The notes under the pieces: generated by a model
Databases searched by the model: none
What the model was told of the DNA's origin: nothing
Seen by the model: the letters and a program-made list of their open reading frames with translations, nothing else
Source of the DNA: an uncultured Porphyromonadaceae bacterium
Lineage (GTDB): Bacteria > Bacteroidota > Bacteroidia > Bacteroidales > Paludibacteraceae
Length of the DNA: 64,000 bases
Direction of reading: 5' to 3'
Assembly (NCBI GenBank): GCA_949285425.1
Contig: CASEAJ010000044.1
Location: 1 to 64,000, forward strand
Position numbers and translations under genes: made by a program
Shown here: piece by piece, positions 4,460-61,945 of the stretch
Numbering within the stretch: position 1 is the stretch's first letter
Layout of the letters: each line of letters begins with the position of its first letter

Positions 4460-5083
4460 CTATTGCTTGAACGAGCTGGTGAAGTCGACCCGGTTGAGGA
4501 TGGACCGTCCGAGCGTGATTTCATCCGCATACTCCAGTTCGTCGCCAATGGCCACTCCGCGGGCGATGGTGGTGATGCGTATGTTGAGCGGCGCCAGCTT
4601 GCGGAAGATGTAGAAGTTGGTGGTGTCGCCCTCCATGGTGGTGCTCAGTGCGAGGATGACTTCCTTGACGTGTTCGCGGCTCACGCGTTCCACCAGGCTC
4701 TCTATTTCGAGGTCTTTCGGGCCCACGCCGTCCATGGGCGAGATGACTCCGCCCAACACGTGGTACAATCCGCGATACTGTTGCGTGTTTTCCACCGACA
4801 TCACGTCCTTCACGTTCTCCACCACGCACACCGTCTCGCGGTCGCGTCCCGGGTTGGCGCATATGTGACACACCTCCGTGTCGGATATGTTGTGGCACAC
4901 CTTGCAGTAGCGTATGTCGCGGCGCAGCTGTATGCACGTGTTGCCGAACAGTTCCACGTCCTCTTCGGGCTGTTTGAGCAGGTGCAGCACCAGCCGCAGG
5001 GCCGTCTTCCGGCCGATGCCCGGCAGCTTGGCGAACTCGTTGACCGCATTTTCGAGCAGGGTGGATGAAAATTGTTGTTGCAT
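4460..5083 (-). CDS. recR: Recombination protein RecR
   Basis: The 207-residue protein has every RecR landmark in order: helix-hairpin-helix ([12 protein letters not shown], residues 19-30), a four-cysteine zinc finger ([23 protein letters not shown]60 to C75), and a Toprim domain with [19 protein letters not shown] and the [15 protein letters not shown] motif. RecR works with RecO and RecF in loading RecA at gaps. The length is normal. A well-formed promoter lies at 5101-5131, close to the ATG, so the leader is very short. Confidence 0.97.
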
Positions 5084-5100: not shown

Positions 5101-5131
5101 CAAATGTACAAAAAACTATTTACCGGACAAA
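5101..5131 (-). promoter_or_regulatory. recR promoter
   Basis: On the minus strand TTTG (5128-5131) and TACATTTG (5101-5108) are 19 bp apart, a textbook Bacteroidetes promoter ending 17 bp before the recR ATG. Confidence 0.75.
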
Positions 5132-5294
5132 TCGGCCTGCCGTCTGTTTGGGAAGCGGTGTGCAGGCAGTCAGCAGGCCGTTTTTGAGGGGCATTTGGGC
5201 AAAAAACAATGCTGACATTTTCTTTGATAAAACACATACGTTTGTATTTATGCTACATACGTGTGTAGTGAAAATGCATACGCATGTGGAGAAA

Positions 5295-5404
5295 AAACGG
5301 CCCGCGTACGGAGTTTCAACGGCGTGCGCACGGAGTTGAAATTCCGCACGCACGGAGTTAAAAATGCGCGCGCACGCCGTTGGAACTCCGTGCGCACGCA
5401 TTTT
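5295..5404. repeat. 22-bp periodic inverted-repeat array A (five units)
   Basis: Five abutting 22-bp units start at 5295, 5317, 5339, 5361 and 5383. Each is a 9-bp arm, a 4-bp core (GCGT, GCGC, ACGC, GCGC, GCGC) and a 9-bp inverted arm. Right arms are ACGGAGTTT, ACGGAGTTG, ACGGAGTTA, ACGCCGTTG, ACGCATTTT. The unit-4 right arm is the exact complement of the unit-2 left arm (CAACGGCGT). A related series of CATACG boxes precedes it at 5235, 5256 and 5277, spaced 21 bp. The gap 5084-5500 between divergent recR and the symporter otherwise holds only their promoters. Confidence 0.85.
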
Positions 5405-5474: not shown

Positions 5475-5482
5475 TATCTTTG
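5475..5482 (+). promoter_or_regulatory. -7 box for the symporter gene
   Basis: TATCTTTG matches TAnnTTTG and lies 19 bp before the ATG at 5501. A matching -33 TTTG is not evident. Array A lies about 70 bp upstream. Confidence 0.6.
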
Positions 5483-5500: not shown

Positions 5501-6967
5501 ATGTCAGCGTATATCGTCTTGCTCGTTATAGGAGTTTATTTTTCGCTGCTTCTCGGCATATCGTTTGTGGCCGGGCGCCGCAACACGGACAACGATGCCT
5601 TTTTCCTTGCCAACCGTCGTTCGCCCTGGTGGGTGGTGGCCATCGGCATGGTGGGTTCGTCGCTGTCGGGGGTCAGCTTCGTGTCGGTGCCGGGCATGGT
5701 GCGTGACCTGGGTTTTACGTACATGCAGACCGTGCTCGGATTCTTCTTCGGCTACATGGTCATAGCGCATGTGCTGCTGCCGCTCTATTACCGGCGGCGG
5801 TTCACCACCATATATACTTATCTGGAGGAACGTTTCGGGCGTGTGTCGTACAAGACGGGGGCGGCTTTCTTCCTGGTGTCGAAAACGCTGGGGGCGGCGG
5901 CGCGCCTCTATGTGGTCGCGCTCATCCTGCAGTCGTTCGTGTTCGACTCGCTCGGGGTGCCCTTCGTGGCCACCGTGTGCGGCATCGTGGGGCTGATATG
6001 GCTCTATACGTTCCGCAGCGGCATACGGACGATTGTGTGGACGGACACGTTGCAGACGGTGGTCATGCTCGCCACCCTCGTGCTGATGATGGTGCAGACG
6101 GCCCGCCATCTGCACATGGACGCGGCCGAGCTGTCCGACGCCTTGTGGCACAGCGACCTTACGCGCCTGTTTGTGTTCGATGACTGGCACACGAAACAGA
6201 ACTTCTTCAAGCAGTTTTTCAGCGGCATATTTATCGTCATTGTCATGACGGGGCTCGACCAGGACATGATGCAGAAGAACCTGACGTGCCGCAACCTGCG
6301 CGATGCGCAGAAGAACATGTATTGGTACGGCCTGTCGTTCATTCCGGTCAACCTGCTGTTCCTCGTGCTGGGGGCCATGCTGCTGTTGTTGGCCGGGCGC
6401 GAGGGACTGGCGCTTCCGGCGGCTTCGGACGACATTCTGCCGGTGTTTGCGGCCTCTCACTTGGGGCGGTCGGTGCTGGTGCTGTTTACCGTGGGCCTGG
6501 TGGCGGCGGCCTTCTCGAGTGCCGATTCGGCCCTGGCGGCCCTTACCACCTCGTTTGCGGTCGACATACTCGACATTGAACGTCTCCGTCCCGAACGTGC
6601 AAAACGGGCTCGGCTCATGATTCACCTGTGCCTGTCGGTGGTCTTTGTGGGGGTTATCCTGCTGTTCCGCGCGCTGAACAACACGAGTGTCATCGACGCC
6701 ATCTTTACCATGGTGTCCTACACCTACGGTCCGCTGCTGGGGCTGTTTGCGTTCGGGCTGTTCACCCGCTGGCAGACGAACGACCGGGCTGTGCCCTGGG
6801 TAGCGGTTGCCGCTCCGCTTGTCTGTGCCGCCCTCAGTTGGACAAGCCGGCACTTCTGGGGCTATGCCTTCGGCTACGAACTGCTCATGCTTAACGGCCT
6901 GCTGACGTTTGCGGGGCTGTGGGGTTTCAGATGTCGGAATGCTTCAGCGGGGTTGAGTCGTCGGTGA
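5501..6967 (+). CDS. Sodium:solute symporter (SSS family)
   Basis: The 488-residue product is an SSS-family transporter with about 13 membrane helices: MSAYIVLLVIGVYFSLLLGI opens TM1, then AGRRNTDNDAFFLANRR, the family loop after TM1, and the GMVGSSLSGVSFVSVPG segment that lines the sodium/substrate path. FSSADSALAALTTSF in the middle is the second conserved SSS segment with sodium-site serines. The solute cannot be predicted. The start is the ATG at 5501; upstream codons in frame run through array A and are not protein-like. The gene ends inside the 3-prime end of the opposite ligase gene (41-bp overlap). Confidence 0.92.
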   Translation: MSAYIVLLVIGVYFSLLLGISFVAGRRNTDNDAFFLANRRSPWWVVAIGMVGSSLSGVSFVSVPGMVRDLGFTYMQTVLGFFFGYMVIAHVLLPLYYRRRFTTIYTYLEERFGRVSYKTGAAFFLVSKTLGAAARLYVVALILQSFVFDSLGVPFVATVCGIVGLIWLYTFRSGIRTIVWTDTLQTVVMLATLVLMMVQTARHLHMDAAELSDALWHSDLTRLFVFDDWHTKQNFFKQFFSGIFIVIVMTGLDQDMMQKNLTCRNLRDAQKNMYWYGLSFIPVNLLFLVLGAMLLLLAGREGLALPAASDDILPVFAASHLGRSVLVLFTVGLVAAAFSSADSALAALTTSFAVDILDIERLRPERAKRARLMIHLCLSVVFVGVILLFRALNNTSVIDAIFTMVSYTYGPLLGLFAFGLFTRWQTNDRAVPWVAVAAPLVCAALSWTSRHFWGYAFGYELLMLNGLLTFAGLWGFRCRNASAGLSRR

Positions 6968-9843: not shown

Positions 9844-10956
9844 CTATTTTAAATAGATTTTCATGAGATGATTCATGATTTTCTCATCAGTAAAATTATC
9901 TGCAAAGTTCTTTCCTTGCGATATCATATGTTCTCTCAGTGCGGTATCTGTCAGGGTTCTTTTCAGTGCAGAGGCCAATTCTTCCGCATTTTGCGGGTTT
10001 ACGTACAAAGAGTCGGGGCCGCCTGCTTCCCGGAAACAACTGCCGGAGGAGGTGATGACGGGAGTCCCGACACACAGAGCTTCTAAAATGGGAATTCCGA
10101 ATCCTTCAAATATCGAAGGGTAGACAAAAACCGACGCCATGCTGTATATGGCGGGCAGGTCACAACTTGGGGCGTTGTGAATGAACAGAATCTGTTGGTT
10201 CAACTTCCATTTGTCTATGAGCGATTCCAGTTCTTTCTTGTAGTCGGTGGGAGAACCTATGATTACGAGAGGCATGTCAATGTTTCCGATGTGGAGTGCC
10301 TCGATGATTCTCCCTGCATTTTTCCGTTTCTCTATGGCTCCGACATTGAGTATGAAATTTTCCGGAAGCCGGTATTTGCTACGGACTTCTTCCTTTTGTT
10401 CTTGGCTGACGGGGTCTCTGAATATCTGGTTGCAGCCTTGATATACGATATCTATTTTCTGTTCATCCGCATGGAAGAACTCGACCAGGTCTTCCTTTGT
10501 CTGCCGGCTTATGGCGATAATTTTATCGGCGGTTTTGCAAGCATGGATGTTTTTCCGGATGAAAATGCTGCGGTAGGTTTTTGAATACAGTTGCGGATAG
10601 CGCATGAAGATGGCATCGTGCATGGTGACAATGCGCTGGACTTGGGTCTTTTCTATTCCCCAGGGCAGTTCTTGGCTCAGACCATGGTAAATGTCTATGT
10701 TCAGCGATTTTATTTCGGCACACATTCCGCGGCTTCTCCAAAGACTGGGGAAAAGCTTTCCGGCAAGACTGCGGGGAGTGACTTCGAGGTTGTTTGGCTG
10801 CATCGGGAACGCGATGTTGTTCCTGCTCTGCGGATTGAACAGGAAGTAGTTGTGTTCTGGATGGAACGTGTTGAACAGGCGGATGACATCGCGGCTGTAG
10901 TTCCCCAGTCCGCGGCTGTTGTGAAAGGCCCTTTTGGCATCAAAAGCGATATTCAT
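9844..10956 (-). CDS. GT4-family glycosyltransferase
   Basis: The 370-residue protein has the two Rossmann-like halves of a GT-B enzyme. The N-half carries FDAKRAFHNSRGLGNYSRDV, the glycine-rich acceptor loop; the C-half carries LNVGAIEKRKN and FEGFGIPILEALCVGTPVI, the retaining GT4 donor-binding motif with the EX7E-like acid pair. Mannosyl- and galactosyltransferases of core and O-chain synthesis look like this. Spacing to neighbours is 3-5 bp on both sides, so it is certainly part of the cluster operon. Confidence 0.9.
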   Translation of the reverse strand: MNIAFDAKRAFHNSRGLGNYSRDVIRLFNTFHPEHNYFLFNPQSRNNIAFPMQPNNLEVTPRSLAGKLFPSLWRSRGMCAEIKSLNIDIYHGLSQELPWGIEKTQVQRIVTMHDAIFMRYPQLYSKTYRSIFIRKNIHACKTADKIIAISRQTKEDLVEFFHADEQKIDIVYQGCNQIFRDPVSQEQKEEVRSKYRLPENFILNVGAIEKRKNAGRIIEALHIGNIDMPLVIIGSPTDYKKELESLIDKWKLNQQILFIHNAPSCDLPAIYSMASVFVYPSIFEGFGIPILEALCVGTPVITSSGSCFREAGGPDSLYVNPQNAEELASALKRTLTDTALREHMISQGKNFADNFTDEKIMNHLMKIYLK

Positions 10957-10959
10957 CTC

Positions 10960-11793
10960 TTATTCGGTTATTTTGTTGATTCCATAAGGAGTGAATGCTC
11001 CGTCTCTTTTTTTGTTTTCTTCCACCAAGGCCATGTTGGGCTCGTACAGTGTGTCGAAGTGTTTGTGGAAGACGTGATATTGGGTGACCAGATGCTTTTT
11101 GCTGACGGGGTAAACACCCGTTTTTCTCAACCGGTTGTCCAAGTCGACATCTTCTCCGAATCCAGGATAGACGAAACGTTCGTCAAATCCGTTTACGGCC
11201 AGCAGGTCTTTCTTCCACAATGAAAAGTTGCATCCCCAAAACCCCCTTGTTTTGTCTTTGACAAACAGCCGGCGGATGATTTTGTTCCGTATGCGAATCA
11301 TGTTTTCAATGTGTGTGGGTTGTTTGTCGAACAGCGTTTCCTTCAATAGCGGGAAAAAAGCCCTGTGGTCGAGATATCCGTTTTTTATGGTGGTTTTGTT
11401 CAGTTTTTGTGAAACTTTTTGGGTCAGCATGACTCTTCGTCCGCTGATGACCTGTTTTTCCTTCCGGTTTTCCAGATGTTCCTGTATGAATTTCGGATGC
11501 GGAATGCAGTCTCCATCGATGAAAATGAGGTAGTCGCATTCGGAGGCGGTTACGGCTTTATTCAGGATGGCGTTTTTCCTCCATCCTTTGTCTTCGTGCC
11601 ACACATGTTTTATGGGGAACGGGTATTTCTCTTTCAGCTCGTTCAGTTTTGCGACGGTATCTTCGTTCGACCCGTCGTCCGCGACAATCACTTCAAAGTT
11701 TTTGCAGGTTTGCCGTTCCAGGGCTATGAAGATATATTCCAACAACTCTATTTTGTTGTAGAAGGATATGATGAGGCTGACGGTAGGCTTCAT
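10960..11793 (-). CDS. GT2 glycosyltransferase with galactosyltransferase-like C-terminal region
   Basis: A 277-residue enzyme with the GT2 start TVSLIISFYNKIELLEYIF, VIVADDGSNEDT, the metal motif IFIDGDCIPH and the acceptor motif GFWGCNFSLWKKDLLAVNGFDE, in which the tryptophan-glycine-cysteine-asparagine run and FGEDVDLDNRL resemble chondroitin synthase or GT27-like C-terminal domains. I chose the ATG at 11793, which overlaps the upstream stop as TAATG; an ATG at 11802 is the alternative and adds three residues. Donor sugar unknown. Confidence 0.86.
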   Translation of the reverse strand: MKPTVSLIISFYNKIELLEYIFIALERQTCKNFEVIVADDGSNEDTVAKLNELKEKYPFPIKHVWHEDKGWRKNAILNKAVTASECDYLIFIDGDCIPHPKFIQEHLENRKEKQVISGRRVMLTQKVSQKLNKTTIKNGYLDHRAFFPLLKETLFDKQPTHIENMIRIRNKIIRRLFVKDKTRGFWGCNFSLWKKDLLAVNGFDERFVYPGFGEDVDLDNRLRKTGVYPVSKKHLVTQYHVFHKHFDTLYEPNMALVEENKKRDGAFTPYGINKITE

Positions 11794-13454: not shown

Positions 13455-13985
13455 CGCAAAAAAGGAGAAGTAAGCAAGAAAATGCTTCCGAACCCTTTCC
13501 GGCTGTCCGGCCGCTTGCGGAGGGGTCGTAATGAACGGATTTTTTCTCGGTCGTATGCTTTTGTTTCCCGTCTTTACCGTCAGGGAAAACGTATTATAAC
13601 ATGTGGCAATGAACGCTCAAAAGAACAAACGATAACTCCTGTTTCTCAATTGAATTGTTTGGCTAAGTGGCTCAATATAAGGTACATTTTTCTCCGCCTT
13701 TTCCGGTGAGCCGGAAAATCGGCCTGTAGAAGCCGCCCGAAGGCCTGTTGTGTGAGCGAAGCGAGTTCAGGCATTCAGGCTTCGCAAGGACGGGTTTTTC
13801 CGTGCGAAGCGGGCACAGCGGCGGCGTTCTTTGCTTCGTTTCTTTCGCTGCAGAAAGAAATGAAGTCGGGGTCGCAGGGGCGGACAGCCCCTTTGCAGTC
13901 TGCCTTATTCGTCAAAAGGTATGTTTTATGATGCGTTTTCCCCGTCTTTACCGCACAGGTTTGTGTCTTTGGCAGCAGATGTTTT

Positions 13986-14073
13986 ACGACCCACGGTGGT
14001 GGGTTGTATAACTCACCACCGTGGGTTATATAACTCATGGTCTTGGGTCGTACGACTCACCACCGTGGGTCGT
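13986..14073. repeat. 22-bp periodic inverted-repeat array B (four units)
   Basis: Four exactly abutting 22-bp units start at 13986, 14008, 14030 and 14052. Left arms are ACGACCCAC, ATAACTCAC, ATAACTCAT, ACGACTCAC; cores are GGTG, CACC, GGTC, CACC; right arms are GTGGGTTGT, GTGGGTTAT, TTGGGTCGT, GTGGGTCGT. Arms within a unit are near-complementary, and arms that meet at a junction also match (TTAT with ATAA, TCGT with ACGA). It lies about 100 bp past the end of rodA. Confidence 0.9.
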
Positions 14074-14174
14074 AGAATTTGTGCGGGAAAAAAGCAAAAC
14101 ATGCGCTTGCGGAATGGTGAAATATTCCGCAAATGCAGAAAAAACAGGTTGAAGGTTACCGCAGGAGGGTGTGT

Positions 14175-21897: not shown

Positions 21898-21985
21898 TCT
21901 TTTCACCTATGTGAAAAGAACGTCTCACGTATGTGATACACGTGTTCCATATACGTGATACACGTGTATCACCTATGTGAGACGA
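21898..21985. repeat. 22-bp periodic inverted-repeat array C (four units)
   Basis: Units start at 21898, 21920, 21942 and 21964. Arms: TCTTTTCAC with GTGAAAAGA (a perfect pair) in unit 1, ACGTCTCAC with GTGATACAC, GTGTTCCAT with GTGATACAC, GTGTATCAC with GTGAGACGA. Cores are CTAT, GTAT, ATAC, CTAT. The half-site GTGATACAC occurs three times counting the inverted unit-4 left arm, and GTGAGACG twice. The array lies in the 535-bp divergent gap 21618-22152 between purH and trmD, which otherwise holds only promoters. Confidence 0.9.
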
Positions 21986-28351: not shown

Positions 28352-28390
28352 GATAGAATAAAAAAATAGTTAGCAGTTAATAGTTAGTAG

Positions 28391-28453
28391 TGACAAGTGA
28401 CAAGTGACAAGTGACAAGTGACAAGTAACAAGTAACAAGTGACAAATGACACT
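28391..28453. repeat. Tandem heptamer array TGACAAG, nine units
   Basis: Nine 7-bp units: five exact TGACAAG, two TAACAAG, one TGACAAA, one TGACACT. It is followed by AT-rich TTAATCATTAATAATTAATC text. The same two kinds of text, in scattered form, fill most of the capsule-locus spacers after 45 kb. Confidence 0.85.
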
Positions 28454-28505
28454 TAATCATTAATAATTAATCATTGAACATTAAATTCGCTCTCCCGTCC
28501 GGCTT

Positions 28506-29475: not shown

Positions 29476-29674
29476 TACACTTCCTATAGTTTCTTGTCCC
29501 ACTTCCTATAGCAGATTCTTTAACACTTGTTCTTTTTGTCTTCTTATGTGCTGTCGTTCAGTGTACTATCTGTTACACTGAATGGCAAAACCAACTATAG
29601 TACGTTGGGCAACTACCTATAGTTAGTTGGACCACTTCCTATAGTTAGTTGGATGACTTCCTATAGGTGGTTGG
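29476..29674. repeat. 22-bp periodic inverted-repeat array D (two plus four units)
   Basis: The word CTATAG recurs at 29484 and 29506, then at 29595, 29617, 29639 and 29661: exactly 22 bp within each block. With the same 9-4-9 frame the core is always TATA. Right arms are GTTTCTTGT, GCAGATTCT, GTACGTTGG, GTTAGTTGG, GTTAGTTGG and GGTGGTTGG; left arms end ACTTCC or ACTACC. The 66-bp stretch between the blocks contains the hairpin TTCAGTGTA/TACACTGAA. Arm complementarity is weaker than in arrays A-C. Confidence 0.85.
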
Positions 29675-35205: not shown

Positions 35206-36852
35206 ATGAAAACAATGAAAAAGACAACAAAAATTTTAAGCCTTGCATGCACATTATTCCTGATGACAGGTGCTGCTTTGCAGGCACAGACAGTGAATGG
35301 TGTATGGAACGGTTCCATAGCCGAATCTTTTGCCGCTGGCAGTGGAACGGTGGATGACCCTTATCAAATCAGCAACGGCGCCGAACTTGCCAAATTGGCT
35401 CAGGATGTGAACGGCGGGACAAATTATGCGGGCAATTACTTCAAACTTACCGCCAATATTGTTTTAAATGATACGGCCAACTGGACAAGTTGGGATGAGC
35501 ATACTGCAGGATTGAACGTCTGGACACCGATAGGTAATTTCAACGAATCATTTGCCGGTATCTTGGACGGGCAAGGACATGTAGTATGTGGTATTTATGT
35601 CAGCAACAATAATGGTCATCAAGGTCTGGTGGGGTATCTCGACAAAGGAGGAGCTATATAGAACCTTGGGGTGGAGGCAAGCTACATCAAAGGTATGTGG
35701 TATATTGGCGGCGTGTGCGGATTCAACTACGGCATGGTGACGAACTGTTATAACACCGGAAGCGTGGCAGGCATAAACTATGTTGGCGGCGTGTGCGGAA
35801 CTAGTTATGACAGAATCAGCGGCTGTTACAACACCGGTAACATAACAGGCAGTGATTATGTTGGCGGGTTGTGTGGATTTAACGCAAGTACTTTGAGTAA
35901 TAATTATAATACCGGCAAAGTGACAGGTCGCGATAGTGTTGGCGGTCTATGTGGATTTAACGGAGGTACTTTGACTAATAATTATAATGTCGGTGACGTA
36001 ATTGCTAACGATGGTGTTGGAGGCGTATGTGGATTCAACGGAAGCATTTTGACTAACAATTATAATGTCGGTGATGTAACCGCTAACGATGGTGTTGGAG
36101 GTGTCTGCGGATTCAATGGAAGTGTTCTGAGTGACAGTTATAATGTCGGTATGGTAACGGGTAACAGCTATATTGGCGGTGTAATCGGTGAAAACGGCAC
36201 AAGTGATGTAAATGATGAAAATCAAGTCTCTGTGACTAATTGTTATTACCTGGCGGAAACTGCGGCTGGTGGCATAAACGGCAATGATGTCGCCGGGCAG
36301 GCAGAAGTCAAAACCGAAGCCCAGTTCAAGGGTGGCAACGTAGCCTGGTTGTTGCAAAACGGACAGGAAGAAGATGTATGGGGACAGACCATTGACATGG
36401 ATAACGCCCCTATATGGCAAACCGGAGCAAATAAAATATATAAAATCTCACTTCAAATTGAAGGAGAAGAAACAAATGAAATTTATGCCAATAGCGGAGC
36501 ATTCAGTTTACCTGTGCCGGCAGACCGCGAAGGTTATACTTTTGTAGGTTGGTTCACAGCCCAGACAGAGGGTGAACAGATAGAAGACAATGCCGTTCTG
36601 ACTGCCGACATGATGCTGTATGCACAGTGGAAAGAGAATGATGCGACAGGTTTTTCTATGCAGGAAAACGCATCATGGCAGGTTTATTGTAAAGATGGCG
36701 TGTTGCACATTGTAGGTACGGATGCTGAAACTTCGTTCTATGACCTGTCCGGTTCATTAATCTATCGAGGCAATGCCCGCATGATTTATCTGCCAGCCGG
36801 TGTGTATATCGCCAACGCAGAAGGACAGGTACAGAAAGTTGTAGTGAGATAA
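35206..36852 (+). pseudogene. GLUG-repeat surface protein interrupted by one in-frame amber codon
   Basis: Read through the TAG at 35659-35661, this is a 548-residue secreted protein: signal peptide (MKKTTKILSLACTLFLMTGAALQA; start ATG 35206 or 35215), a beta-helix-like GLUG region, six 26-residue GLUG repeats at 35707-36174, a Listeria-Bacteroides repeat (YTFVGWFTAQTEGEQIE, near residue 445) and a C-terminal sorting-like tail (FYDLSGSLIYRG...YIANAEGQVQKVVVR). Both sides of the stop are in one frame and both keep protein-like sequence, so a single base change explains it. The downstream part could restart at a GTG (35671), but would lack a signal peptide. It may be a sequencing error, phase, or true decay. 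Confidence 0.7.
35707..36174 (+). repeat. Six 78-bp coding repeats (26-residue GLUG units)
   Basis: Six units start with GGVCG, GGVCG, GGLCG, GGLCG, GGVCG, GGVCG and contain YNTG or YNVG at position 15-18. Units 4 and 5 are nearly identical in DNA, pointing to recent duplication. Confidence 0.85.
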
Positions 36853-45515: not shown

Positions 45516-45603
45516 TTTTTTCACATAGGTGAAACATATTTTTCACATAGGTGAAACGTATTTTTCACATAGGTGAAAAAAGCTTTTCACATAGGTGAAA
45601 AAA
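45516..45603. repeat. 22-bp periodic inverted-repeat array E (four units)
   Basis: TTCACATAGGTGAA occurs at 45520, 45542, 45564 and 45586, exactly 22 bp apart and identical. In the 9-4-9 frame the core is ATAG; left arms TTTTTTCAC, ATTTTTCAC, ATTTTTCAC, GCTTTTCAC; right arms GTGAAACAT, GTGAAACGT, GTGAAAAAA, GTGAAAAAA. The 14-bp word is the exact reverse complement of TTCACCTATGTGAA in array C. About 430 bp upstream of the capsule promoter. Confidence 0.93.
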
Positions 45604-46029
45604 GAAAAGTAACGGTCATGATGCACGACATTACGGGCTTGAGTCAATGACGGATACTTTTTCCCCTTTTCAAAAGATATTTCAATTTTCATCTGCCTGA
45701 CTTGAATTGATTTTCGCGAGTTGCTTGGAACTCATGTTTTTGTTACTTCATTTGCATCGCATTGGTTCTTCCCTTTGCAATTTTTTTGAAATATAATAGC
45801 TCAATCACTGTCCGAATCACCACCTCGGAAAATGAAGCGGGCTATCTGCAATTCCTGTTGGGAGATGCGTTATTGGCGCAGACTTTCCCATAAGGAATTG
45901 TGGCTTGTGGTGAGCCAGGACAGTGTATGGAGATGGTCTGTGCTTTTTTTTGTTTGTACGCGAAAATCTCTGTATGGGTTGCCTTGCACACATTGTTAAT
46001 TTTTTTTATCATATTTTTCGAAAAAGTAT

Positions 46030-51411: not shown

Positions 51412-51584
51412 AGGGCAATGAACAATTAACAATGAACAATTGAAAATGAGGAGCGGGTAGTGGAGAGAATTATTAATTGTTAATGATTAGCTGTCACTCT
51501 CTACTGTCTACTGTCAACTGTCAACTGTCACTTGTAACTCGTCACTCGTCACTATCAACAAAAACAACTCATAACAGAATAAAT
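51412..51584. repeat. Low-complexity capsule spacer
   Basis: Spacer built from AACAATTAACAATG-type and CTGTCACTTGTCAACTG-type text, of the same character as 45345-45470, 47899-47985, 52470-52526, 52899-52985, 53553-53697, 55798-56028, 57993-58110 and 61905-62035. No hairpin terminator is evident. Confidence 0.65.
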
Positions 51585-52898: not shown

Positions 52899-52985
52899 AT
52901 AATTTGTCATTCGTCAACTGTCACTTGTCACTCGTCACTCGTTAACTGTCAACTATTAACTCTCAACCACTAACAACAAACTTTT

Positions 52986-53552
52986 ATGAACGTTATAAAA
53001 ACAGCCATTGAAGGGGTGGTCATCATCGAACCCCGTATTTTCAAGGATGACCGTGGTTATTTTTTCGAAAGTTTCTCGCAACGCGAGTTTGAAGAAAAAG
53101 TACGTAAAATCACTTTTGTACAAGACAACGAAAGCATGTCCTCCTATGGAGTGATGCGCGGCTTGCATTTCCAGCGTCCGCCCTTTGCCCAGAGCAAGCT
53201 CGTGCGTTGTGTCAAGGGGGCCGTGCTCGATGTGGCGGTCGACATCCGCAAAGGTTCGCCCACCTACGGGCAATACGTAGCCGTCGAACTCACCGAAGAC
53301 AACCACCGTCAGTTTTTCATTCCTCAGGGCTTTGCCCACGGCTTTGCCGTGTTGAGCGATGTGGCCGTGTTCCAGTACAAGTGCGACAATTTCTATCACC
53401 CCGAAGCCGACGGAGGTATCAGCATTCTCGACAACAGCCTCGGCATCGACTGGCACATTCCCACCGACAAGGCCATTCTCAGCGAAAAAGACTTGAAACA
53501 CGCCGTGCTGGCCGATTTCGACTCACCGTTCGAATATGAATGTTTCAAGTAG
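52986..53552 (+). CDS. rfbC: dTDP-4-dehydrorhamnose 3,5-epimerase
   Basis: The 188-residue RmlC is a cupin-fold epimerase. It shows the PRIFKDDRGYFFESFSQREF start, MRGLHFQRPPFAQSKLVRC (catalytic histidine), RKGSPTYGQYVAVEL and FFIPQGFAHGFAVLSD with a conserved aspartate partner. Length is usual. It follows a low-complexity spacer rather than rfbA directly, because of the S23-type gene. Confidence 0.96.
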   Translation: MNVIKTAIEGVVIIEPRIFKDDRGYFFESFSQREFEEKVRKITFVQDNESMSSYGVMRGLHFQRPPFAQSKLVRCVKGAVLDVAVDIRKGSPTYGQYVAVELTEDNHRQFFIPQGFAHGFAVLSDVAVFQYKCDNFYHPEADGGISILDNSLGIDWHIPTDKAILSEKDLKHAVLADFDSPFEYECFK

Positions 53553-53697
53553 TGACGAGTGACAGTGACGAGTTACAAGTGACAGTTGACAGTGGAGAGT
53601 GACAGCTAATCATTAACAATTAATAATCCTCCCCGCTCCTCGCTATTTAACACTAAACATTGAACATTAAACATTAATAATTAATCATTGATCATTA

Positions 53698-54609
53698 ATG
53701 AACGTATTGGTAACCGGAGCCAACGGACAACTTGGCAATGAAATGCGCCTCATCGCACCGAACACACCGTTTCATTATGTGTTTACCGATGTGGTGCCGG
53801 CCGAAGGGCACGAAACGCTGATGCTCGACATCACCGACCTCGAGGCTGTGCGTGAAACAGTAAAAAAGTATGACATAGACTGCATAGTGAACTGTGCGGC
53901 CTATACCAATGTCGACAAGGCCGAAACCGACGAGGATTTTTGCCGGCTGCTCAATGCCGCCGCACCCGAAAACCTGGCGGTTGCCATGAAGGAAGTGAAC
54001 GGACTTCTGGTGCATGTCTCCACCGACTACGTGTTTGGAGGCGACCCATACAACCTGCCTTGCCGCGAAACCCAGCAGGGCACACCTACCGGAGTGTACG
54101 GACGCACCAAACTCGAAGGCGAGCAGCGCATCAGGGCTGTAGCTTGCAAGCACGTCATTCTGCGTACCGCATGGCTCTATTCCGAGTTCGGCAAGAACTT
54201 TGTGAAAACCATGCTTCAGCTCACTGCCACCAAGCCCCAGCTCAAGGTGGTGTTCGACCAGGCCGGCACACCCACCTATGCCTACGACCTGGCTTTGGCC
54301 ATTCAGACCGTGCTGGCCGACTATGCCGCCCAACCCGAAGGCGACACTTACGTCCGCACCGGCATCTACCACTTCAGCAACGAAGGCGTGTGCTCGTGGT
54401 ACGATTTCACCAAGACCATCGCCTCACTGGCCGGCCACACCTCCTGCGACATCCAGCCCTGCCACAGCGACGAGTTCCCCAGTCCGGTGAAGCGTCCGGC
54501 CTATTCCGTGCTCGACAAAACCAAAATCAAGGAAACCTTCGGCCTGCACATTCCCTATTGGGTCGACTCGCTGAAGGTCTGCATGCAGCGCATGTCCGCC
54601 CACGCATGA
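53698..54609 (+). CDS. rfbD: dTDP-4-dehydrorhamnose reductase
   Basis: The 303-residue RmlD is an NAD(P)-dependent SDR-type reductase that finishes dTDP-L-rhamnose. The start MNVLVTGANGQLGNEM carries the GxxGxxG loop, STDYVFGG and TGVYGRTKLEGE hold the YxxxK catalytic pair, and the tail RPAYSVLDKTKIKETFGL is characteristic. Spacer upstream is low-complexity (53553-53697); rfbB follows 42 bp later. Confidence 0.95.
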   Translation: MNVLVTGANGQLGNEMRLIAPNTPFHYVFTDVVPAEGHETLMLDITDLEAVRETVKKYDIDCIVNCAAYTNVDKAETDEDFCRLLNAAAPENLAVAMKEVNGLLVHVSTDYVFGGDPYNLPCRETQQGTPTGVYGRTKLEGEQRIRAVACKHVILRTAWLYSEFGKNFVKTMLQLTATKPQLKVVFDQAGTPTYAYDLALAIQTVLADYAAQPEGDTYVRTGIYHFSNEGVCSWYDFTKTIASLAGHTSCDIQPCHSDEFPSPVKRPAYSVLDKTKIKETFGLHIPYWVDSLKVCMQRMSAHA

Positions 54610-55910: not shown

Positions 55911-55975
55911 GTGTCAGTAGCGACGTACCGTGGTGCGTCTGTGTCGGTAGTGACAAGTGACAGCTAATCATTAAT
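55911..55975 (+). repeat. Left 65-bp direct repeat flanking the AlbA_2 gene
   Basis: GTGTCAGTAGCGACGTACCG and the following 45 bp are repeated at 58017-58081 with one mismatch. The inner GACGTACC/GGTGCGTC arms form a hairpin. The two copies are 2,106 bp apart (start to start). Confidence 0.85.
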
Positions 55976-56028
55976 CATTAATCATTGATAATTGATAATT
56001 AATCATTAACCATTAACCACTAAACTAT

Positions 56029-56118
56029 CTTCCCGCTCCTTTAGAAATATCCTACGAGACCGGAAACGGGTGACTTCCCGCTCCTTTAGAAATATCCTAC
56101 GAGACCGGAAACGGGTGA
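56029..56118 (+). repeat. Perfect 45-bp tandem duplication before the AlbA_2 gene
   Basis: Copies 56029-56073 and 56074-56118 are identical, beginning CTTCCCGCTCC and ending GGAAACGGGTGA. The second copy ends 32 bp before the proposed start. Confidence 0.92.
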
Positions 56119-56150
56119 CGGTTGAACATAAAAGAACAGAAAATAGTCAA

Positions 56151-60801: not shown

Positions 60802-61904
60802 AAATAGGGATACTGACTTTTCATTGTGCACATAACTATGGAGCCGTGTTGCAGGCCTATGCCTTGCAGCACTATCTGTTGTCCTTGGGGCACGATGTGG
60901 AGATCATCGATTACAGGCCCGAGTACCTGTTGCGTCCCTATCGTTTGAACATCACTTGGAGGCGTTTCTTCTCCAAAAAGCCTCTGAAGTGCGTTCAAAA
61001 GTTTTTCGGCGAACTGTTCTGCTTCCTGCCCGTGCGATGCATTCGCTACAGCAAGTTCAACCGCTTCATCGCACACCGTTTGCAACTCTCCCGGCGGGTG
61101 CAGGGCACGCACATTCCCGCTGGCTATGATGTCTATGTCGTAGGGAGCGACCAGATTTGGAACCCAAACATCACCGAGGGGATTGACGGCGTTTATTTTG
61201 CCCGTTTCGGTTTTGAAAAAGGCCGGCGGAAATACGTGTCGTATGCTGCCAGCATGGAAGCAGTCGCTCTGTCCGAAAGTGACAAGGCCCGTTACTCGTT
61301 GCTGTTGCGCGGGCTGGACAGCATAAGCGTACGTGAAAAGGTGCTGGTCGACTTGTTACAGCCGTTGACCGACAAAAAAATAGAACTGGTGCTGGACCCC
61401 ACCTTGCTGGTCGATGCCGATGTGTGGAACCGCCTGTCGCTATGCCCCTTCCCGCACAGGAGATATGTGCTGGTCTATGCGGTGAGAGGCAACGATGCCA
61501 TTTTGGACATGGCCGGACGTATGGCCCGGCAGCTGGGTGTCGGGGTGCTGAACCTGACGGCCTGGGTCACGGAGCAGAGAAACAAATATCAGACGGCTTC
61601 TCCCGAAGAATTTTTGGGAGCTATCAGGCATGCAGAACTGGTGCTCACCACCTCTTTCCATGGAACGGTTTTTTCCGTACTCTTCAACCGCCCCTTTTAT
61701 ACCGTAAAACTGGGTGCTGGAAACGACTCGAGGTCTGAATCGCTGTTGGAGATGCTTGACCTGAAGCAACGGATGATTCCTTTGACGGCGACAGACATAC
61801 ATCCGGACCGCTCGGTTGATTGGGAGATGGTGAACGGCTGCTTGCACGAGTACAGGCAGAAAAGCCGTGCCTTTTTGCAATCGGCACTTGGTAGTGGGGA
61901 GTGA
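60798..61904 (+). CDS. Polysaccharide pyruvyltransferase-family protein (CsaB/WcaK-like)
   Basis: The 368-residue protein matches the PS_pyruv_trans family: MKIGILTFHCAHNYGAVLQAYALQHYL start, VVGSDQIWNPNITEG, YVSYAASMEA, SISVREKVLVDLL and DPTLLVDADVWNRL, then AELVLTTSFHGTVFSVLFNRPF with the conserved SFHG. It should transfer pyruvate ketal from phosphoenolpyruvate to a sugar of the capsule repeat. It shares a 4-bp overlap with the Fe-S gene. A low-complexity spacer and REP-like copy follow. Confidence 0.9.
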   Translation: MKIGILTFHCAHNYGAVLQAYALQHYLLSLGHDVEIIDYRPEYLLRPYRLNITWRRFFSKKPLKCVQKFFGELFCFLPVRCIRYSKFNRFIAHRLQLSRRVQGTHIPAGYDVYVVGSDQIWNPNITEGIDGVYFARFGFEKGRRKYVSYAASMEAVALSESDKARYSLLLRGLDSISVREKVLVDLLQPLTDKKIELVLDPTLLVDADVWNRLSLCPFPHRRYVLVYAVRGNDAILDMAGRMARQLGVGVLNLTAWVTEQRNKYQTASPEEFLGAIRHAELVLTTSFHGTVFSVLFNRPFYTVKLGAGNDSRSESLLEMLDLKQRMIPLTATDIHPDRSVDWEMVNGCLHEYRQKSRAFLQSALGSGE

Positions 61905-61945
61905 CGGTGACGAGTGACAAGTGACAAGTGACTAGTGACAAGTTC

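Follow-up and report, generated by a model that had tools for sequence, protein, structure and literature searches.

The gap between recR and a divergent sodium:solute symporter gene in the genome studied here (G000) contains five palindromic units (array A), and these belong to a genome-wide and order-wide class of intergenic repeats. A member of this class consists of 3-9 units (usually 4-5) of exactly 22 bp each, every unit being composed of two inverted half-sites, so that half-site orientation flips once per 11 bp, i.e. about once per helical turn. Judged from the sequences compared, we hold with moderate confidence that the arrays are interspersed REP/BIME-like intergenic repeats of Bacteroidales, which would form helically phased platforms for the binding of protein. 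Array A is therefore not the single-locus curiosity as which it had been introduced in a preliminary description; indeed, the window, i.e. the whole stretch of 64 kb that was analysed, harbours four further 22-bp arrays (Table 1).

Table 1. Array A, its surroundings and the other 22-bp arrays of the window (positions in the window).
Feature	Position	Strand	Remarks
recR	4460-5083	minus	neighbour of array A, divergent; RecR Pfam domains
-7-like element of recR, TACATTTG	5101-5108	minus	by eye
Array A0	5234-5290		three imperfect palindromes around CATACG (at 5235, 5256, 5277; step 21 bp)
Array A	5295-5404		recR-symporter gap; five 22-bp units = ten 11-bp half-sites, orientation alternating
Array A, unit 1	5295-5316		half-site types CCG / GGAG
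Array A, unit 2	5317-5338		half-site types CCG / GGAG
Array A, unit 3	5339-5360		half-site types GGAA / GGAG; the inverted repeat of the whole array has its axis at the centre of this unit, 5349/5350
Array A, unit 4	5361-5382		half-site types CAT / CCG
Array A, unit 5	5383-5404		half-site types GGAG / CAT
~24-bp inverted repeat of array A, left arm	5306-5329		partner 5370-5393
~24-bp inverted repeat of array A, right arm	5370-5393		partner 5306-5329
-7-like element of symporter gene, TATCTTTG	5475-5482	plus	by eye
Sodium:solute symporter gene	5502-6967	plus	neighbour of array A, divergent; Pfam SSF
22-bp array	13981-14074		family ACGACYCAC-N4-GTGGGT
22-bp array	21903-21983		families GTYYCAC-N4-GTGRRAC and TTTCACCTATGTGAAA
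22-bp array	29589-29674		CTATAG / GTTGG family
22-bp array	45517-45604		family I (TTTCACATAGGTGAAA); four units, all in one orientation

The half-sites of array A, read outward from the unit centres, are GCGGGCCGTTT, GTACGGAGTTT, GCACGCCGTTG, GCACGGAGTTG and GTGCGGAATTT (half-sites 1-5), followed by GCACGGAGTTA, GCGCGCATTTT, GCACGCCGTTG, GCACGGAGTTC and GCACGCATTTT (half-sites 6-10). These 11-mers are of three kinds, GGAG-like (n=5), CCG-like (n=3) and CAT-like (n=2), each of which is found both as left arm and as right arm, and four of the units are heterotypic (in a sample of five units only). Unit 5 recurs as the last unit of a related array on another contig (C47:68568-68649). Array A sits between two divergent putative promoters and overlaps neither of the -7-like elements, which fit what we take to be the Bacteroides -7 consensus, TAnnTTTG, and which pair with each other as an inverted repeat (I6). 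The CATACG series that had been reported ahead of array A is present in the sequence; the last centre of this array A0 lies 24 bp ahead of the first centre of array A, and the two, being out of register, are regarded as separate arrays.

The periodicity of array A is not due to chance, as its self-match score at lag 22 is 41 while the maximum in 500 dinucleotide shuffles of the gap is 14 (lags 15-40), and its consensus unit is palindromic beyond that of column-permuted arrays (0.63 versus 0.42, p 0.002). The complementarity between arms of different units, which first drew attention to this locus, is real: the right arm of unit 4 is the exact complement of the left arm of unit 2 (as half-sites the two are identical), and 8 of 9 positions are complementary both between the right arm of unit 5 and the left arm of unit 4 and between the left arm of unit 5 and the right arms of units 1-3. 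The matches between units 2 and 4 and between units 1 and 5 are, however, no independent events and form one contiguous inverted repeat of ~24 bp, with just two differences between its arms, both of them G-U compatible. Arm matches of this kind are to be expected wherever a small number of half-site types occur in alternating orientation, and permuted half-site orders match equally well. The preliminary description had proposed that a small set of half-sites was shuffled; of this, the part that survives is that the half-site, and not the 22-bp unit, is the module, while the matches in array A need no shuffling event. Mirror symmetry did not exceed that of arrays permuted within orientation classes, neither for the whole array (p 0.27) nor for the best nested axis (p 0.77), and the same held for fold energy (p 0.57) and for the longest inverted repeat (p 0.24). 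A special, mirror-like ordering of array A was thus rejected, and the order of its half-sites holds no message beyond what their composition carries.

Array A nevertheless folds far better than its shuffles (z -8.0), as it might if the arrays were RNA or cruciform structures, i.e. serial hairpins or one long hairpin that act as bidirectional terminators or as stabilisers of 3' ends. We regard this as unlikely. A strong fold is what alternating half-sites must give in any case, and the actual arrangement of half-sites gains hardly anything in folding over permuted ones (mean z -0.44). Selection on unit hairpins was not supported by the half-site permutation test on trimmed arrays. In the 42 trimmed arrays, complementarity between the two arms of a unit does not exceed that between arms taken from different units (z -1.4 and -1.5), and this absence of arm covariation disfavours pairing at the RNA level; mirror symmetry of whole arrays is weakly present in the same set (z 2.7), and a pure half-site model does not need it. 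Within the window, Rfam gave no match above the gathering score; the only matches to array A were sub-threshold ones to miRNA models, as any long hairpin would yield. Across arrays, the conserved module is the half-site, not the unit.

Outside the window, 400 kb of sampled stretches of the same genome contain 28 arrays at lag 22 versus 0-3 at each of the remaining lags (15 to 40); some few of these 28 are non-palindromic and perhaps something else. The density in this sample is ~1 array per 14 kb, from which we extrapolate an estimated total of roughly 200 arrays in the 3.04-Mb genome. In 23 of 34 G000 arrays, the palindromy of the 22-bp unit exceeds that obtained by permuting its columns (p <= 0.01). 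Distinct sequence families can be recognised, namely I (TTTCACATAGGTGAAA), II (GTYYCAC-N4-GTGRRAC), ACGACYCAC-N4-GTGGGT, CCTCCGTGCGGAGGTTATA, CTATAG/GTTGG, AGTACT-N8-AGTACT-N2 and the family of array A itself, with relatives at C47:68536-68651 and C73:18141-18198. Family I comprises 92 forward and 77 reverse sites at <=2 mismatches, the reversed control yielding none; at <=1 mismatch, 114 sites are found in this genome versus a single stray one among 60 relatives, of which three belong to the same genus. A fully palindromic variant of family I (TTTTCACCTAGGTGAAA) was observed near the ends of contigs C15, C36, C78 and C83 (position ~125-170), which suggests that the assembly is interrupted by the arrays or by repeats close to them. 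Where the neighbours of arrays were inspected, in a small number of cases, they proved to be ordinary genes (recR, the symporter gene, recQ, and that of a TPR protein).

The window also holds repeats of other kinds. A second, distinct class consists of many arrays with 7-bp units (AGTGACA/TGTCACT, TAATCAT), located at 28365-28484, 51416-51559, 52905-52974, 53551-53698, 55951-56023 and 61899-61943. Furthermore, a 45-bp sequence (CTTCCCGCTCCTTTAG...) is duplicated exactly in tandem at 56029-56119, and a coding-type tandem repeat of 78 bp, in about six copies, occupies positions 35701-36182 and probably belongs to a repeat-rich surface protein.

The class is not confined to this genome, and the composition of its units follows similar rules elsewhere. 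In Phocaeicola plebeius, 19 arrays were detected at lag 22, one at lag 23 and none at other lags, and the species is estimated to hold 50 or more five-unit arrays; of 20 arrays examined there, 16 have exactly five units. The P. plebeius unit is AAACGYAA joined to AAACGY(AC/CC/CT). Its stem pairs 0-4 match as often as independent half-sites predict, and its central pair avoids matching (2 of 102 units versus 36 expected), neither of which would suit a structure formed by RNA. Homotypic inner words are likewise rare in family I of G000 (5 versus 35.7 expected), in Phocaeicola (0 versus 9.2 expected) and, at one position, in the AGTACT family (0 versus 4.7 expected); family II, a set that mixes subfamilies, displays positive and not negative covariation at two positions. 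A unit of P. plebeius, of family I or of the AGTACT family thus systematically combines two different half-site types, so that like half-sites occur in other units, often inverted. The 22-bp units come with linkers of 4-6 bp, and CRISPR arrays, with identical repeats and unique spacers of repeat length, were rejected as a candidate on the basis of this layout.

The relative orientation of neighbouring units is random in P. plebeius (31 same, 29 opposite), whereas in family I it hardly varies (53 same versus 4 opposite in 57 pairs). The latter is what one would expect of plain tandem repeats, i.e. of slippage copies of one ancestral palindrome that drift by point mutation. As an account of the class this is very improbable, since it would leave unexplained the random orientation in P. 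plebeius, the unvarying 22-bp length across unrelated families and species, the heterotypic rule and the fixed number of units.

Judged by recR, the named records closest to G000 are Paludibacter-like MAGs. Among the sister species of G000, lag-22 arrays are present in G001 (9 in 110 kb) and G002 (9 in 200 kb), while G003 shows no excess at lag 22 above its background, which amounts to 4 for almost all lags and apparently reflects runs of N, and the sample from G004, which represents another genus of the family, has no lag-22 arrays. Two adjacent CTATAG-type arrays (L139 5166-5371 and L149 3849-4033) are seemingly orthologous between G001 and G002, with CTATAG cores retained and linkers altered. 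Palindromic 22-bp arrays of other sequences are found near recR in Bacteroides mediterraneensis, B. reticulotermitis and Bacteroides sp. 224, and also in a Tannerellaceae MAG and a Prevotella MAG. The double unit AAACGY-N4-RCGTTT-N6 has 258 matches in B. mediterraneensis, 203 in P. plebeius and 32 in P. coprophilus (reversed controls 0), while a set of 61 genomes from across the phylum yielded no match. Family II was recovered from 6 of 247 Bacteroidales genomes, which belong to five families of the order, that of G000 among them, with matches of the reversed control in G312 and G314 only, and one AGTACT-type array was found in P. plebeius. Some sequence families are hence expanded in one species and others common to several families of Bacteroidales. 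As far as these searches indicate, the array sequences are lineage-bound and patchy and the 22-bp ruler is common; with the ruler alone conserved, sequence searches would miss the class. Phage and plasmid records gave no match to array A. In IMG/VR, AAACGY-type 22-bp arrays were seen on two contigs classed as viral (L330 ~10090-10210, five units and P. plebeius-like; L329 ~11530-11750) and family I on none, so that phages are not obvious carriers.

The copies of family I share inverted flanking sequence ~35-40 bp out; the P. plebeius arrays have no common flanks by eye, and array A has only two relatives to compare. In P. plebeius, the order of spacers (10.1 versus 9.2 in shuffled arrays, sd 0.17) and that of core words (16.9 versus 15.9, sd 0.25) are shared beyond shuffled expectation, which indicates that whole arrays are copied. 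P. plebeius and B. mediterraneensis have both retained an orthologous array 3' of recR, and two of its six aligned units have core words of opposite sense (AAGG versus CCTT; ACTT versus AAGG). Point drift would not readily give such words, and the alignment, of one locus only, supports turnover or inversion of units. The corresponding region of P. coprophilus, which aligned without an array, has diverged too far to delimit an empty site. The arrays are inherited and turn over.

The placement of arrays relative to genes differs between species. The P. plebeius arrays lie just after stop codons, and none of 20 is located between divergent genes versus 24 of 90 background gaps; 10 of 25 G000 arrays lie between divergent genes (the counts are based on simple ORF calls, in stretches picked for containing arrays). 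One role may consequently not fit all. Termination or 3'-end stabilisation would agree with the post-stop location, and Fremin and Bhatt list palindromic candidate RNAs of 80-132 bp from human-gut Bacteroidetes (PMC8040213), which resemble the arrays in length, palindromic character and intergenic location. An RNA-level role is nevertheless difficult to reconcile with the G000 arrays between divergent genes, or with the orthologous recR locus, where the array is followed by a terminator-like hairpin of the ordinary kind, distinct from it. In the passages of PMC8040213 consulted, the candidates are read as RNA structures, most of them predicted terminators, and no 22-bp half-site geometry is reported; some of them may represent such arrays, with their ruler unnoticed.

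Alternatively, each sequence family could be an operator for one transcription factor that regulates the adjacent genes. Palindromic half-sites, helical phasing and several families each with a sequence of its own would be in line with this, as would the position of array A between divergent putative promoters. We judge it quite improbable because of the copy number (tens of near-identical arrays at scattered loci), the unrelated neighbours, and the post-stop location in P. plebeius, where promoter regions are avoided. Moreover, whole arrays are copied between loci together with their flanks, and the recR-symporter gap is without an array in the three sister species G001, G002 and G003 and in the outgroup G004. 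Protein sites repeated at helical-turn spacing are familiar from the 22-bp iterons of R6K, the 11-bp repeats of ParR/parC and the half-operators of Arc; these, however, are single-locus functional sites and mostly direct repeats, whereas the arrays are interspersed families.

Like the REP/BIME elements of enterobacteria with their GTAG- and CGTC-tagged REPs (PMC3733652), the arrays consist of interspersed, intergenic, imperfect palindromic units in many copies, with mosaic clusters, alternating orientation and families specific to species groups. They differ in their strict 22-bp unit of 11-bp half-sites, typically with 4-5 units, and in a mismatched distribution of the Y1 transposase. As to the tag (GTAG or CGTC at the foot of a 20-40-bp unit), family II has CGTC beside the palindrome and the half-sites of array A have none by eye. 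REPINs (PMC3116915) are similarly short, non-autonomous populations of palindromic sequences that persist in genomes, but they comprise two REPs each and depend on RAYT transposases, which were not found in two array-bearing species. That a RAYT (Y1 tyrosine) transposase mobilises the arrays as REP/REPIN elements seems scarcely credible to us, even though they are interspersed palindromic repeats of intergenic DNA and G000 has one Y1 transposase gene. This gene has no array at its flanks, a Y1 transposase was detected neither in G001 nor in G002 (87-89% complete genomes), and G003 has five with essentially no arrays; the distribution in these sister species disfavours RAYT mobilisation as a common cause. 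Finally, the BrickBuilt and 464/PgRS MITEs of Porphyromonas gingivalis (PMC4596501), with inverted ends and about 19 copies, are likewise dispersed intergenic elements of a member of the Bacteroidales with short units in tandem. These are direct repeats of 23 or 41 nt from one species, for which a palindromic half-site architecture is not described there, and the P. plebeius arrays have no leader and tail in common. Within open-access text, we found no description of 22-bp palindromic half-site arrays in Bacteroidetes.

If the arrays are REP/BIME-like repeats that serve as protein-binding platforms, the constant 22-bp ruler would correspond to the footprint of a putative DNA-binding protein, copies of which would line up next to each other along one face of the DNA and touch their neighbours via both dyads. 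The fixed helical phasing of half-sites that characterises a protein-binding array was found at lag 22 only, in G000 as well as in P. plebeius. Some families might be bound by a heterodimer or an asymmetric dimer. The arrays would spread as short non-autonomous elements via a putative copying enzyme, and could grow and rearrange by duplication and inversion of units, both of which self-complementarity would favour. Their role is likely structural, as a nucleoprotein block between transcription units of the type proposed for E. coli BIMEs, and we would prefer this to control of one adjacent gene. More tentatively, one may envisage an order-wide nucleoprotein system, in which fast-evolving putative protein(s) would recognise 11-bp half-sites as heterotypic pairs, with about ten half-sites making up an array of ~110 bp, and would both organise intergenic DNA and propagate the arrays that they bind, with lineage-specific dialects and an invariant 22-bp ruler.

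REP, BIME and REPIN sequences have been studied for decades, mainly in Proteobacteria, and the present class occurs in the dominant gut Bacteroidales. Its rigid architecture is retained while the sequences differ from one lineage or sequence family to the next, and the class does not follow the known REP transposase in its distribution. The platforms proposed here lead to a testable prediction, namely a phased, possibly heterodimeric binding protein; P. plebeius is a cultivable species.
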